Both the position numbers and the translations under genes were made by a program. From Halohasta litchfieldiae (GTDB lineage Archaea; Halobacteriota; Halobacteria; Halobacteriales; Haloferacaceae): a stretch of 64,000 bases of DNA. This document shows, piece by piece, positions 20,919 through 62,384 of the stretch; within the stretch, counting starts at the first letter, position 1; every line of letters starts with the position of its first letter. The stretch is taken from NCBI RefSeq assembly GCF_002788215.1, contig NZ_CP024845.1, forward strand, positions 930,001-994,000. Reading direction: 5' to 3'. The notes beneath the pieces are model-generated. The model did not search any database. It was not told where the DNA came from and worked only from the letters and a program-made list of their open reading frames with translations.

Positions 20919-20996
20919 ATGAATCATCAACCACTGCGATGGACGGTCGCATCCCGCGAGATGCGAGTTCGCAGTCAGGTGGGTGAGAGCCGATGA
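20919..20996 (+). CDS. 25-residue upstream ORF coupled to the KaiC-like gene
   Basis: An ATG at 20919 opens a frame of 25 codons (starting MNHQPLRWTV) whose TGA stop overlaps the ATG of the next gene as ATGA at 20993-20996. That overlap is the usual sign of translational coupling elsewhere in this window. The peptide is arginine-rich, in contrast to the acidic proteome. It could be a leader peptide, a tiny DNA- or RNA-binding protein, or chance. No homologue is known to me. Confidence 0.35.
   Translation: MNHQPLRWTVASREMRVRSQVGESR
20933..20975 (+). promoter_or_regulatory. Nested stem-loop before the KaiC-like gene
   Basis: Outer arms actgcga (20933-20939) and tcgcagt (20969-20975) enclose inner arms cgcatc (20948-20953) and gatgcg (20960-20965). 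Both pairs are perfectly complementary and share a centre to within three bases. The structure lies inside the 25-codon ORF and ends 18 bases before the ATG at 20993, so it could block or expose that start in the mRNA. Confidence 0.4.
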
Positions 20997-22615
20997 GTGG
21001 CGACTGGTTCGAGGAGGCCATCAGCGAACTCGACGAGGAGGAGTTGGACGACGAGGATCTCAAAGCGTTAGAAGAAAACGGTGAGATCGAGGATCTCGAC
21101 AGCGATAGCGAGACCGAAGATTCTGAGGACGACACCGAAACAGCCGACTCAGACGTTGACACACCAGCAGCGCCGGATGACGAGCCGGCGGCTGCAGAGG
21201 CGACTGACGACGAGTCAGCAGCCGATGTGTTCGGGTTCTCGGCTGATGAGCCCGATGAGGCCGATGCCGCCGGGGATGAAACCGAGGCAACGCACGAGTC
21301 GACTGACGAGTTCGGATTCGGTGCCGACGATCCCGAACTGGAAGTAAACGAGGTCGACGGGAGCAACGACACGGTCGACCAACAGGAACCGACTGAACCG
21401 ACCGATGACCCAGTCGACACGGCCGACGGAGAAGCCACCAGCAGTGCCGACGAGTTCGACGCTGACAGTACGGACGAACAGCCGTCTGTACCCCCATCCG
21501 AGACTGACGATAACAGTACGGATGACGCAGGCATCGATCAGACGGAGACAGACACAGTGGCGTCGGATGCTGTCGACGCCGGCGAGCAGGCTGGGCCATC
21601 GACGGCCCAATCCCCCGAGGAGTTCGGCTTCAGTATCGAAGATGAAGGCGACGAGACGGCCACCTCAACCGACCCACCACCAGATACCAACGAGGCGTCG
21701 ACGCCGGAGCCTGATTCGGAGCCATCGGACGATCCGTTCGGCTTCGGCAACAGTGGCGGCGGAAGTAGCGGTGGTAGCGGTGGTGGCGGGATGGGAGACT
21801 CTGATGACGACGATTTCGGCTTCGGTGGGTTCAGCGGCGGCGGTGGCGGTGGCGGTGGTGGCGGCGCACCGAGCCCATCGAGCCCCGAGGATTTCGACGA
21901 GGAGAATTTCGAATCTGATATCGACCGGATCGATCTCGGGATCAAGGGACTCGACGAGATGATCCTCGGCGGCGTCCCCGAGCGGTCGCTGATCGGTATC
22001 ATCGGTGGGGCCGGGACCGGGAAAACCACCTTCGCCCTCCAGTTTTTGAACGAAGCCCTCGAAAACGGCGAGCGCGCGGTCTTCATCACGCTCGAACAGA
22101 CCGAAGAGGCCGTGTTGTCGACCGCCGAGGAGAAGGGGTGGCCGTTCCGGGAGTACGCCGACGACAACCAACTCGCAGTCGTCGTCCTCGACCCAGTCGA
22201 GATGGCAAACAGTCTGGCAACGATTCGGAGCGATATCTCGCGGTTGATCCGCGAGTTCGGTGCCTCGCGGCTCGTGCTGGACTCCGTATCCCTGCTTGAG
22301 ATGATGTACGACCATCCAGCCAAGCGACGGAGCGAAGTGTTCGACTTCACGCGCTCGCTCAAAGACGCCGGGGTGACGACACTGCTGACCTCCGAGGCCA
22401 GCGAGGACTCCTCGCATGCCTCTCGCTACGGCGCGGTCGAATACCTCACGGATGCCTTCTTCGTCCTGCGGTACGTCCGGACCTCGAACTTCGAGGAAAC
22501 CCGGCTGGCCATCGAGATCCAGAAGATCCGGGATGCAAACCACTCCCGAGCGACGAAACCCTACGACCTCACCGACGAGGGGATGAGCGTCCACCGACAG
22601 GCCAACATCTTCTGA
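20993..22615 (+). CDS. KaiC/Rad55-like RecA-superfamily ATPase with long acidic N-terminus
   Basis: The C-terminal 230 residues are a KaiC-type ATPase domain: it opens with DRIDLGIKGLDEMILGGVPE, has Walker A GGAGTGKTT at 338-346, the acidic pair after the next strand (TLEQTEE near 366-372) and Walker B RLVLDSVS at 426-433. Such single-domain archaeal proteins act as signalling ATPases or accessory motor and recombination factors. The first 305 residues are disordered, Asp/Glu-rich and carry five copies of [DE]xFGF[GS] near residues 80, 107, 211, 249 and 275, then a linker of ten consecutive glycines. The 540-residue protein is much longer than typical KaiC-like ATPases of 230-280. Function unknown. 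Confidence 0.88.
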   Translation: MSGDWFEEAISELDEEELDDEDLKALEENGEIEDLDSDSETEDSEDDTETADSDVDTPAAPDDEPAAAEATDDESAADVFGFSADEPDEADAAGDETEATHESTDEFGFGADDPELEVNEVDGSNDTVDQQEPTEPTDDPVDTADGEATSSADEFDADSTDEQPSVPPSETDDNSTDDAGIDQTETDTVASDAVDAGEQAGPSTAQSPEEFGFSIEDEGDETATSTDPPPDTNEASTPEPDSEPSDDPFGFGNSGGGSSGGSGGGGMGDSDDDDFGFGGFSGGGGGGGGGGAPSPSSPEDFDEENFESDIDRIDLGIKGLDEMILGGVPERSLIGIIGGAGTGKTTFALQFLNEALENGERAVFITLEQTEEAVLSTAEEKGWPFREYADDNQLAVVVLDPVEMANSLATIRSDISRLIREFGASRLVLDSVSLLEMMYDHPAKRRSEVFDFTRSLKDAGVTTLLTSEASEDSSHASRYGAVEYLTDAFFVLRYVRTSNFEETRLAIEIQKIRDANHSRATKPYDLTDEGMSVHRQANIF

Positions 22616-23849: not shown

Positions 23850-24602
23850 TTAAACCGAGACGTCGGCGACGTTCTGTTTGAGTCGGGTCGTGAGCACGAG
23901 CAGGAACGTAATGAACATGATCGTCAGCACGATACTAATGGACTCGACGAGGGCGGACTGAACCCCGACGAGGACGCCGACCTCGACCGCGCTCGCAGCG
24001 CCTGCGCTGAGGAGGATGGCGATAATGTAGGTCAACATCGTATCGAGGACCGTTCGGCTCGACATTGCGGCTCCTTTGATCCGTGCCGCAAACGAGACGC
24101 CATACAGCGTAAAGCCAATACTCGCGGCCAGCTGGACGACAAGGGTCACGCTATTCAATCCAAGCAGGATGATGATCATGAACTGGATGAAGGCGATGAA
24201 CAGAAACCCCGCCTCGATCCAGCGGATACTCTCGATTGAGATCGGCATCGAGACCCCCCTGTCTTCGGTCTGCTGTGGCGATTCGAAGTACAGTTCCCGC
24301 ATCGCCAGCGCGAAAAAGATAATAACGAACAGCTGGCAGAGCCGCCGGATCGAACCGACGAAGCCGGCGCTGGCCGGAACGATATCCGCCGCCGCGATTA
24401 CCTCGGCAGTGCCTGTCACGGCGTACAACGCGCCGACGATCCCAGCCAGAATGACGTACTCCCACATCTCCGAGTTGATCGTCCGCCGGTTGGAGTTCTG
24501 CATCGTGTAATAGGTCAAACTGATCGAGGCAACGAACAGCAGCATATAGGCCGTCAGCCGAGTGACGATCACAGTCCCTTCCGGATTCTCCAACAGTGTC
24601 AT
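23850..24602 (-). CDS. Seven-helix membrane protein of unknown function, paired with the pseudokinase
   Basis: Beginning at the ATG at 24602 (MTLLENPEGTVIV) the protein has 250 residues and seven hydrophobic segments of about 20 residues, at roughly 10-30, 47-67, 80-100, 130-150, 158-178, 190-212 and 218-238. No retinal-type lysine motif or other known signature is evident in the last helix. Its start overlaps the stop of the upstream kinase-like gene as ATGA, so the two are almost certainly made together. A receptor or membrane anchor for the kinase-like protein is an inference from this coupling. A longer frame upstream lies inside the kinase gene and is not credible. Confidence 0.8.
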   Translation of the reverse strand: MTLLENPEGTVIVTRLTAYMLLFVASISLTYYTMQNSNRRTINSEMWEYVILAGIVGALYAVTGTAEVIAAADIVPASAGFVGSIRRLCQLFVIIFFALAMRELYFESPQQTEDRGVSMPISIESIRWIEAGFLFIAFIQFMIIILLGLNSVTLVVQLAASIGFTLYGVSFAARIKGAAMSSRTVLDTMLTYIIAILLSAGAASAVEVGVLVGVQSALVESISIVLTIMFITFLLVLTTRLKQNVADVSV

Positions 24603-25954
24603 ATTGCCCCCCCGCTGAGTGCCTGTCTGAGTTCGGTCCGGAAATCCTGTACCGTGTTGTAGCGGTAGAGTTTGGACTTCCGGAAACATTTCGCGAGCAC
24701 CGTGTCGACGCCATCCGAAAGCTCGTCGGTAAACTGGCTGGCCGGCGGTGGCTGTTCTTCGACGACCTTCTGCAGCACGACTCCCGGCTGGCCGTCGAAC
24801 GGCAACCGCCCGGTAAGGAGTTCGTAGACAATTAGCCCCAGATGGTAGATATCGGTCGAGGCGTCGACGCCACCGAACTGGTCGGGCTTGACCTGCTCGG
24901 GGGCCGCATACATCGGCGGCACTCCCATCGGCAGCGCCGACAGCTGACAGAGCAACTGCGAGATACCCCAGTTGCTAATCTTGGGATAGGGCCAGACGTT
25001 GCCATCGTAGGTCCGGCTGAAGATCACGTTCCGTGGCGTCAGCCCGCCGTGGATCACACCCGAGCCGTGGGCATGACAGACGGCGTCGACGATGCGGTCG
25101 ATGATCCAGCGAGCCTCTCGATCCGACAGTGAGCCGAGACGGTCGCTGAGCCGTTGGCCCTCCTGATACTCGACGACGAACCACGGCTTTGGGATCGTGC
25201 CGTGGGCGACAACCGGCACGATGGCGTCGTGATCGTCGACTGACTGCCACTCGTTGAGTGTCTCGGTGAACTCAGTGTCGAACTCAGCGGGGGCGCGGTG
25301 TTGAATCTGGGTGAGCAGCGCGGAGTGCGTTCTCTCTCTGTCCGAGTACCGGACCAACCAGAGGTCGACGTGACTCCCCGAGCCGCGGGATTTGATCGGG
25401 TCGAACGCCTCACGTCTGGCCTCGACCGGCGGCGGGGTCGGCGGTGGCTCAGTTGGAGGTCGACCGCGCTCCTCGCGGTCTGGGGGCTCCTCGACGGTCT
25501 CATCGTCCTCGGCGGCAGTGCCGAGTCCCTGATACTCGGAGGCCTCACCGGTGAGCGTCGTCACCGACCCCGAGAGTTCGCGGTCACGGATCGACGCGAT
25601 CAGCTGTTTGTTGTGGACGTCGTCCCGGAGATCGAGATCCTCGATAGCGTCTCTGACGAGCTCTGGATACTCCGCGGCGATGTAACCCAGTGCACGAATA
25701 ATGTCCTCGTGAACCGACTCCGGCTCGCTTTCGAGCAGTGAGGCGAGTGCACGAACGGAGCCAGTCACGGCCTCGGGGTTGGCCGACACGACGAGACCAA
25801 GTGCCCACGACGCCGAGAGCCGGACTGTCTTGTCCGTACTCTCGAAGAGATGGAGAATCCGGTTCAACTCCTTTGAGTCGAACGTCTCAGGCTCTGTGAT
25901 CGCCGCGTTTAGGACCGTCTCTGCGGCCCGTTGTTCTGTCCCCGATCCATCCAT
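24599..25954 (-). CDS. HEAT-repeat protein with a predicted pseudokinase domain
   Basis: Residues 1-125 form helical HEAT-like repeats (SASWALGLVVSANPEAV, DIIRALGYIAAEYPELV). A proline/acidic linker (135-180) leads to a Hanks-type protein kinase fold at 190-445. The fold is clear: FVVEYQEGQRLSDRL, a catalytic-loop position IHGGLTPRN (301-309), APEQ (351-354) and DIYHLGLIVYELLTG (368-382). However the catalytic Asp of HRD is Gly304, the metal-binding Asp of DFG is Asn328 within SNWG, and no VAIK lysine is seen near 205-215. All three key residues are therefore missing, which suggests a scaffold or nucleotide sensor rather than an active kinase. The downstream 7-TM gene is coupled by ATGA. Confidence 0.87.
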   Translation of the reverse strand: MDGSGTEQRAAETVLNAAITEPETFDSKELNRILHLFESTDKTVRLSASWALGLVVSANPEAVTGSVRALASLLESEPESVHEDIIRALGYIAAEYPELVRDAIEDLDLRDDVHNKQLIASIRDRELSGSVTTLTGEASEYQGLGTAAEDDETVEEPPDREERGRPPTEPPPTPPPVEARREAFDPIKSRGSGSHVDLWLVRYSDRERTHSALLTQIQHRAPAEFDTEFTETLNEWQSVDDHDAIVPVVAHGTIPKPWFVVEYQEGQRLSDRLGSLSDREARWIIDRIVDAVCHAHGSGVIHGGLTPRNVIFSRTYDGNVWPYPKISNWGISQLLCQLSALPMGVPPMYAAPEQVKPDQFGGVDASTDIYHLGLIVYELLTGRLPFDGQPGVVLQKVVEEQPPPASQFTDELSDGVDTVLAKCFRKSKLYRYNTVQDFRTELRQALSGGAI

Positions 25955-26179
25955 TATTCTACGTACTTAGTTTTCTACCATATAATTTCTCTGAATAGAG
26001 AGCTACAGCCCGTCAGACGGGAGCCAATCCCGACGCCGCCACCGGCCGAATACACCCGCTTTGTATCGGCTGTCGACAGAGAGAAATACCGCGAATTCGG
26101 AGAGTAGAGAATTCCTAACCAAAGACTAGTGGCCAACTACCACCGAGGATTTACCCGTCTTGAGAGCCAATGGCACAGT

Positions 26180-26470
26180 GTGAAAAAAACCGAGCTTGTT
26201 CACCTGCATGCACTTTTAGTGCTCCTCTCGGAGCGGGTCGTCGACCAAGGAATCGTCGACCGCTCGTATTTCGAGCCCTACGCTGAGCTCGACGTCACGC
26301 CGGTTTCCTTTCGGGCGCGCCGCGACCGCCACGAGGAGGCCGTGCTCCTGTTGGCGGCACTGCTGGCGGCGGCAGTGAGCGACGAGTATGAGCCACCACC
26401 AGATGTCGAGACCATCCGCACCGAATCGGATTCGACGCCGTCGTCTCACTCTTCGGCACCGTCGTCGTAG
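26180..26470 (+). CDS. UPF0058 family protein
   Basis: A 96-residue helical protein of the archaeal UPF0058 family, recognisable from KKTELVHLHALLVLLSERV at the start, the Y-rich middle (YFEPYAELDVTPVSFRARRD) and the hydrophobic helix HEEAVLLLAALLAAA. The GTG at 26180 is chosen because it places the family's usual start right before KKTEL; the frame is open 17 codons further up. Function is unknown. The 225 bases before it are A/T-rich and show no other gene. The C-terminal 30 residues are a Ser/Thr/Pro-rich tail not typical of the family. Confidence 0.8.
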   Translation: MKKTELVHLHALLVLLSERVVDQGIVDRSYFEPYAELDVTPVSFRARRDRHEEAVLLLAALLAAAVSDEYEPPPDVETIRTESDSTPSSHSSAPSS

Positions 26471-60748: not shown

Positions 60749-61358
60749 TCGAGCCTGATTTATGTTTCCTGATACACAGCTCAGTCTCTTCTGCTTGGGC
60801 CATGTTCCCGTTTTTGCCGTGGGCCGTGTCGAAGCCGCCCAACTCGTCGAAGATGTCGGCGCGAAACGCGATATTGCAGCCGTAGGTGTTTCTGATCTCT
60901 GTTGCTTCGTCGTGGTATGGACCGCCACCGATCAGCCAGTCGAACTCACGCGGGATGTGTATCGGTCTCTCAGCGGGCCATTCGGGTATCGCTGGACCGC
61001 CAGCCGCGATGGCTCCATCCTCGAAGGCGTCGACGAGTTCAGCAACCCAGTCGGGAGCCGCAACGCAGTCGTCATCGAGGAACGCATAGATATCGCCACT
61101 GGCGTTGTCTGCGCCACGGTTCCGAGCTTCAGCTAACCCCGTCGTTTCCGGGTTATACGTGATCTCGACACCGCCATCAGTCAGTAGCTCAGTCGTCTCG
61201 ACCATATCCGGGTCGCCATCGAGTGGGAGGACAAGCTCGATATCATCGTAGGTCTGATTTTGGATCGACTGGATCGCCTCTTTGAACAGCCCGTATCGTC
61301 CCCAGGTGTGTGAGGCGATGATAACCGAGACCGTTTTGTCGGTCTCTCGGTCACTCAT
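60738..61358 (-). CDS. Glycosyltransferase family 2, shortened at the C-terminus
   Basis: A 206-residue GT-A enzyme. The N-terminus TVSVIIASHTWGRYGLFKEAI, the nucleotide-sugar part GLAEARNRGADNASGDIYAFLDDDC with the metal-binding DxD and the later IAFRADIFDELGGFDTAHGKNGN block are all typical. Related archaeal enzymes continue about 80-100 residues with a catalytic-acceptor region and membrane helix; here the protein ends soon after ETELCIRKH. The stop lies 11 bases inside the ABC gene. It overlaps the epimerase stop as ATGA. Activity is doubtful unless the family member is naturally short. Confidence 0.85.
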   Translation of the reverse strand: MSDRETDKTVSVIIASHTWGRYGLFKEAIQSIQNQTYDDIELVLPLDGDPDMVETTELLTDGGVEITYNPETTGLAEARNRGADNASGDIYAFLDDDCVAAPDWVAELVDAFEDGAIAAGGPAIPEWPAERPIHIPREFDWLIGGGPYHDEATEIRNTYGCNIAFRADIFDELGGFDTAHGKNGNMAQAEETELCIRKHKSGSNER

Positions 61359-62329
61359 CCCTCCACCTCTATCCCTTCGACTGCCTCCGGCGCAGTGTAC
61401 GGTGCACAGACTCGTCGGACTCCCTCTTCGAACTCGACCTGCGGCGTCCATCCTGTCGACTCCCGAAACGTCGATGTGTCGGCGAGGGTATCGCTCACGT
61501 AGCCATCGAACGGACAGTCGACGTAGATCGGCTCGACGTCGGTCCCGAGAGCGTCGTTGATGAGCCGAACCATCTCGTTGAACGAGTACGACTCCCCGGT
61601 GCCGACGTTGTAGACGCCTGTGAGCTGCTCGGCAGCAGTCAGATCGAGCGCCCGAACGACATCGTCGACATGCGTAAAGTCACGCGTCTGGCTACCGTCA
61701 CCGAACAGTTCCGGCTGCTGGCCGGTGGCGATTGCATCGGCGAACTGGGCGACCGTGTTCGCAAACTGGCCTTTGTGGGCCTCGTTGCCACCGAACCCCT
61801 GATACACCGAGAAAAACCGGAGCCCCGCGATGTTCAGCCCGTGGTGGTTGCTGTAGTACTCGGCGTACCGTTCCCGGGCGAGTTTCGATGCCTCGTAGCC
61901 CGTTTCGGCCTCCACATCCATCGAGGTCGGAGACGGCTCCGTTCGATCCCCGTAGATCGATGACGTCGACGCGTAGACGACTGACTCACACGTCTCACGA
62001 ACGGACTCGATGGTGTTGACGAACCCTTCGACGTTCACCCGAACCCCTTGCTGTGGGTTCGACTCGTGCATCTGGCGGGAGGAAAGCGCCGCCAAATGAT
62101 ACAGCACGTCGACGTCACCGACTGCTTCGTCGAGATCGTCATCGAGGACACTCCGTTCTTTGAACGTCACGTCGTCGACGAGGTTCGATTCCGTCCCGAG
62201 ATACAGATCGTCGACGGCGATGACGTCGTTGGCGGTCGACAGATAGTTCGCGAGGTTCGAGCCGATGAACCCAGCGCCGCCGGTAATAAGCACTCGCTTA
62301 TCAGTGAGGGCTGGGTCGGACTGGTTCAT
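61355..62329 (-). CDS. NAD-dependent nucleotide-sugar epimerase/dehydratase
   Basis: A 324-residue short-chain dehydrogenase of the extended (GalE/RmlB) type. The NAD-binding glycine motif GGAGFIGSNLANYL is at about 16-29, the SSIYGD serine region near 130 and the catalytic Y-x3-K in YEASKLARERYAEYY near 155. It probably converts UDP-glucose or a related sugar nucleotide for the glycosyltransferase encoded after it. First gene of the operon; its start is preceded by a structured leader. Confidence 0.9.
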   Translation of the reverse strand: MNQSDPALTDKRVLITGGAGFIGSNLANYLSTANDVIAVDDLYLGTESNLVDDVTFKERSVLDDDLDEAVGDVDVLYHLAALSSRQMHESNPQQGVRVNVEGFVNTIESVRETCESVVYASTSSIYGDRTEPSPTSMDVEAETGYEASKLARERYAEYYSNHHGLNIAGLRFFSVYQGFGGNEAHKGQFANTVAQFADAIATGQQPELFGDGSQTRDFTHVDDVVRALDLTAAEQLTGVYNVGTGESYSFNEMVRLINDALGTDVEPIYVDCPFDGYVSDTLADTSTFRESTGWTPQVEFEEGVRRVCAPYTAPEAVEGIEVEG

Positions 62330-62384
62330 ACACCACCCCCGTCAGTCTGCGGCTGCCGAGTGGTCGGTGTTGGTTGTACTCGTC

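Follow-up and report, generated by a model that had tools for sequence, protein, structure and literature searches.

A conserved haloarchaeal module of a HEAT-domain pseudokinase and a seven-helix membrane protein

The 64,000-nucleotide stretch of the Halohasta litchfieldiae genome analysed here (the window, part of a 3.33 Mb single-contig genome) encodes a kinase-fold protein that is catalytically dead, as predicted from the residues it has lost, together with a seven-helix membrane protein whose gene lies directly 3′ of it. We refer to the two genes as K (24599–25954, minus strand, 451 amino acids, start at 25954, TGA stop at 24601-24599 included) and M (23850–24602, minus strand, 250 amino acids); the stop codon of K and the start codon of M share an ATGA overlap at 24599–24602. 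The pairing of K and M is well supported, and because the genes adjoin or co-occur in more than 70 related species, their products probably work together in sensing or scaffolding at the membrane. On balance, we consider it probable, although well short of certain, that K acts jointly with M as a non-catalytic scaffold or relay. The original prediction concerned K only and read it as a pseudokinase scaffold with all three catalytic residues replaced. That interpretation was right in kind and incomplete; it is partly supported, since the three-residue loss holds for this species and not for the family at large, and the partner M, the strongest clue to function, was missed. The data describe a conserved haloarchaeal pseudokinase/seven-helix module, the function of which we infer.

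The open reading frame of K is real and lies on the minus strand, which had been left unstated. A putative archaeal TATA box (AAATTATA, 25981–25988, minus strand), recognised by eye, is located about 27 nt 5′ of the start codon. The proposed kinase fold was confirmed by a Pfam Pkinase match (PF00069) to residues 242–433 (E 2.5e-19, 70.1 bits against a cut-off of 31.7) and by an AlphaFold2 model built from 72 sequences (mean pLDDT 87.4), which predicts a helical array at residues 6–128, a low-confidence linker and a confident PknB-like kinase fold at residues 185–446 (24617–25402, minus strand). The closest solved structures to the latter are Stk1/PknB (Foldseek E 6.5e-15, TM by target 0.83). 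With a Pfam score above the cut-off and a kinase fold, K belongs to the protein kinase superfamily. The HEAT-like repeats and Pro-rich linker that had been proposed were likewise recovered. Residues 6–128 (25571–25939, minus strand) are modelled with high pLDDT as seven helices in the tandem antiparallel pairs of HEAT/Arm repeats, and region 36–94 gives a Pfam Arm match (E 4e-6, 27 bits against a cut-off of 20.6) and a weak HEAT match; in a relative from Halorussus (L212), HEAT_2 scores above its cut-off. The linker (residues 129–184; 25403–25570, minus strand) is variable, Pro-rich/acidic and predicted to be disordered, with pLDDT below 50 at residues 125–150. A small-protein gene divergent from K (26129–26470, plus strand) shows conservation within Halohasta and, in part, in three further genomes.

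We verified on the DNA the codons of Thr215, Gly304, Asn309, Asn328, Glu353 and Asp368 of K. As had been reported, Gly304 (25043-25045) occupies the HRD Asp position within the degenerate catalytic loop HGGLTPRN (25028–25051, minus strand), and Asn328 (24971–24973, minus strand) occupies the DFG Asp position in SNWG, as seen from codon and alignment. The VAIK Lys position is taken by Thr215 (25310–25312, minus strand), and the αC Glu is also absent. Thus, K has none of the three residues (VAIK Lys, HRD Asp and DFG Asp) of an active Hanks-type kinase, and the kinase fold, the absence of all three and a kinase-domain dN/dS of 0.10 make it a pseudokinase by sequence criterion. The APE motif (24896–24904, minus strand) and the F-helix Asp368 (24851–24853, minus strand) are kept, as is Asn309. 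In the family alignment, Pro352 is invariant, as are the HRD His302, the APE Glu353, Arg431 and Asp368, which indicates that the kinase-core architecture has been kept and catalysis has not. In contrast, the retention of Asn309, noted for K in the window, does not extend to the family, where only 10 of 76 members have it.

Full-length orthologues of K were found in all four Halohasta genomes, Natronocalculus, Halalkalirubrum, SHRA6 and several Halorubrum species, and the HRD Asp is present in none of them. The missing VAIK Lys holds for the window species but not for its three genus-mates (ALLKR, ALLKQ and ALFKQ), Natronocalculus, Halalkalirubrum or SHRA6, all of which have Lys; most family members have Arg. 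The DFG position is Asn in Halohasta and Natronocalculus and Asp in Halalkalirubrum, SHRA6 and most Halorubrum. Because the VAIK and DFG states vary among orthologues, the catalytic losses are stepwise, with only the HRD loss universal, and the loss of all three residues is a trait of the window species and not of the K family.

An alignment of 167 related kinase domains, 76 with an M partner and 91 without, bore this out. The HRD Asp occurs in none of the 76 M-paired kinases and in 84 of the 91 unpaired ones, the αC Glu in 3/76 versus 78/91, the VAIK Lys in 8/76 versus 80/91, and the DFG Asp in 37/76 versus 88/91, counts whose rows lack phylogenetic independence. With the catalytic columns left out of the tree calculation, the paired kinases and four others (L009, L156, L088 and L092) form one clade of 80 with SH-aLRT support of 82, and none of the 80 has the HRD Asp; support is 90 when L017, which also lacks the Asp, is joined. 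The remaining unpaired rows without the HRD Asp (L012, L017 and L019) sit on long or divergent branches, and a search of their genomes found no M. The HRD Asp loss is clade-wide and far beyond chance, and the simplest reading of the sequences is one ancestral loss with no reversal in the sample. Restoration of HRD and DFG in most homologues, which the original prediction had named as counter-evidence, is thus seen at HRD in no paired kinase and in none of the four further clade members, and at DFG in about half of the family. Since the DFG Asp is kept to that extent, some members may bind nucleotide. Two Halosimplex genomes (loci L088, L092 and L293, L294) encode two family pseudokinases each, the M-paired one with HGALDP and the other with HAGIDP; no M adjoins the extra pseudokinase in the stretch examined.

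In comparison with H. litorea, dN/dS was 0.10 for the kinase domain, 0.15 for the HEAT domain, 0.25 for the linker (the highest of the gene) and 0.12 for M, values that are simple pairwise estimates at a dS near 0.8. Within K, purifying selection is strongest on the kinase domain, which is therefore functional.

The association of K with M was evident in the first 14 loci: at every one of them M lies immediately 3′ of K, and the outer neighbours differ. An M-profile scan across 392 sampled Halobacteriales genomes was read against the K scan and the fetched regions. By our count, M was present in at least 73 of the 392, all of which also have a pseudokinase gene, and in 70 of the 73 that gene is immediately upstream of M on the same strand. 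In the other three, both genes are present but have moved: they are 3.4 kb apart and divergent in one genome (G298), 92 kb apart in another (G051) and on different contigs in the third (G326). That both were retained after separation points to a functional tie. The genes overlap or are no more than 3 nt apart in 49 of the 73 linked pairs measured. A phylum-wide scan with the M profile gave matches restricted to the same order and found no M outside Halobacteriales. In Halorussus, a gene for a small CxxC protein without a Pfam match is found immediately 3′ of K and in opposite orientation to it (L212, 4826-5069, minus; L222, 4690-4936, minus; L009, 2446-2686, minus), between K and M where these are linked.

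Since the outer neighbours change from one family to the next, four kinds of gene near K in the window (GtrA, sulfatase, acyl-CoA dehydrogenase and KaiC-like ATPase) were rejected as members of the module, and no pathway common to the outer neighbours emerged among the loci compared. The KaiC-like ATPase (window 20993–22615, plus strand) has an acidic, Gly-rich, low-complexity N-terminal extension of about 300 residues and an ATPase domain that is approximately 95% identical within the genus. At Haloarculaceae-type loci, K-M is adjacent to, and divergent from, a rhodopsin gene and a gene for an HtrII-like MCP transducer (e.g. L242, 6306-9329, plus; L247, 326-3379, minus; and others among L239–L265); a transducer-type cluster is found in 20 loci and a rhodopsin cluster in 16. 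This sensory-rhodopsin linkage suggests a membrane-signalling setting for K-M, although, being confined to one family, it may be an inherited linkage only.

M has no convincing family in Pfam or NCBIfam and no match among PDB sequences. AlphaFold2 predicts seven long helices (mean pLDDT 89.5, pTM 0.85). Loops 1, 3 and 5 and the C-terminus have Lys plus Arg values of about 1.9–2.6, as opposed to 0.03–0.45 outside; these positive charges place them in the cytoplasm, giving a predicted N-out/C-in topology. Conservation of the helices is higher in their cytoplasmic halves than in their outer ones (2.68 versus 2.30 bits; rank test p 2e-4, with columns that are not independent). Helix 3 ends with Arg102 and neighbouring Glu/Tyr, and helix 6 begins with Thr184 and Asp187; the conserved residues are at the cytoplasmic ends, and no conserved charged residue was found in mid-membrane. 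Foldseek matched M best to GPCRs and to a designed GPCR-like fold, yet weakly (E 5e-3 at best, TM 0.6–0.7), and seven-helix bundles match easily in fold comparison. The model makes M loosely GPCR-like, and the claim is of common topology, not of homology. Seven helices and the predicted orientation are likewise shared with microbial rhodopsins (PF01036), which M does not match in Pfam; the core of its helix 7 has no Lys, and M accordingly lacks a rhodopsin-type retinal site. HisKA_7TM (PF16927), a seven-helix sensor domain like M and common in the host genome, was rejected by profile-profile comparison (probability 0.3). Other haloarchaea encode a further, second group of seven-helix proteins that resemble M (L266–L269, in genomes G399, G311, G057 and G434; profile probability 99), with no kinase gene within the fetched stretches.

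An alternative is that M works as a transporter, a channel or a membrane enzyme instead of as a receptor, with K as its regulatory subunit. The pairing fits such a protein equally well, the fold match to receptors is weak, and ABC-transporter genes lie near K-M in Haladaptataceae, as do glycosyltransferase and ABC genes in another family. However, the location of the conserved residues of M, at the cytoplasmic ends and not as charges in mid-membrane, argues against transport or catalysis, no transporter family matches M convincingly, and the transporter neighbours vary between families. We regard this alternative as unlikely, yet it is the strongest of those considered. The best reading is that M is a seven-helix membrane sensor and that K serves it as a dedicated cytoplasmic non-catalytic scaffold or switch, by a mechanism that we infer. 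M would span the cytoplasmic membrane, the variable side facing outward and the conserved side inward, and K would dock on its inner face, as the conservation of that face and the near-universal pairing suggest. M would take in the signal as a sensor, and K would relay or scaffold it by conformational change and protein binding, without phosphate transfer, partners presumably being bound through the HEAT surface together with the locked kinase fold.

We also considered that K, like SelO or SidJ, might retain an unconventional catalytic activity through relocated residues. Consistent with this, the DFG Asp persists in part of the family, His302 is invariant, and position 306 is Asp in about one-third of members, the HGGIDP type included. 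On the other hand, K of the window has lost all four of the Lys, αC Glu, HRD Asp and DFG Asp, and the family has no invariant polar replacement; a relocated Lys of the WNK type, sought in the glycine loop of the family alignment, was not seen, that position not being Lys. We think that such catalysis is improbable. More doubtful still is the possibility that K is the allosteric activator of another protein kinase that is itself active, in the way that STRAD activates LKB1, a common pseudokinase role elsewhere. Active relatives of K are numerous in haloarchaea of other lineages, but in the host genome K is the sole Pkinase match above the cut-off, weaker matches being read as RIO- and ABC1-type proteins. 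K is therefore probably not the regulator of a second Hanks-type kinase, and the partner conserved with it, M, is no kinase. Finally, that K is a decaying gene, as its patchy distribution in Halorubrum and the Halorubrum ezzemoulense locus L065, with the K frame broken into two open reading frames (a damaged gene or an assembly error), might suggest, can be dismissed almost entirely given a kinase-domain dN/dS below that of the rest of the gene and intact frames with the partner in several families; within Halohasta, the dN/dS values and intact K-M pairs rule it out.

K resembles the PknB/Stk1-type bacterial Ser/Thr kinases (PF00069) in its kinase fold, APE motif and F-helix Asp, and differs from them in the missing catalytic Lys, HRD Asp and DFG Asp, in a HEAT N-domain in place of TM-PASTA, and in having its membrane partner on a separate gene. 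Nearest to it in sequence are active archaeal kinases from haloarchaea and methanogens (L011, L030 and L087 among them), which have in common with it the conserved Trp residues and the motifs DWG and AAPE; unlike K, they have intact catalytic motifs (HLDLKP/HRDIKP, DWG, AAPEQ and TDIY, in that order) and no M in the stretches examined. Eukaryotic pseudokinases have been studied extensively. A prokaryotic one that, as proposed for K, is tied to a membrane machine is YukC/EssB of type VII secretion, although EssB has its own transmembrane helix and no HEAT domain. The bacterial families ActPs1-3, GLW, CP1, DLHK and DYD are wholly or largely pseudokinase, and several lack all three motifs and are membrane-associated (2025 review, PMC12599244). 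The families described there are bacterial, and haloarchaea go unmentioned (PMC12599244). Our search of an open-access library found no description of a haloarchaeal pseudokinase family of this kind.

The family also poses an annotation problem, as relatives carry protein kinase and phosphorylation labels; for instance, the family pseudokinase at 60818-62383 of NZ_CP100466.1, which lacks the HRD Asp, has been given the name 'protein kinase' and the GO term protein phosphorylation. Bacterial pseudokinases have been catalogued recently; the K family is haloarchaeal, and its catalysis appears to have been lost on a single branch. The catalytically dead state has persisted in several haloarchaeal families, together with the pairing to a seven-helix protein not described before. 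With one Hanks-type domain in the host and one partner, K-M offers a clean system for non-catalytic kinase-fold signalling. More tentatively, and with the odds somewhat against it, the module may be a haloarchaeal receptor system in which a predicted N-out/C-in seven-helix protein signals through a dedicated HEAT-pseudokinase on the cytoplasmic face. If this is true, its layout would parallel, in a prokaryote, that of a 7TM receptor and its intracellular transducer, without a phosphorelay or G protein.
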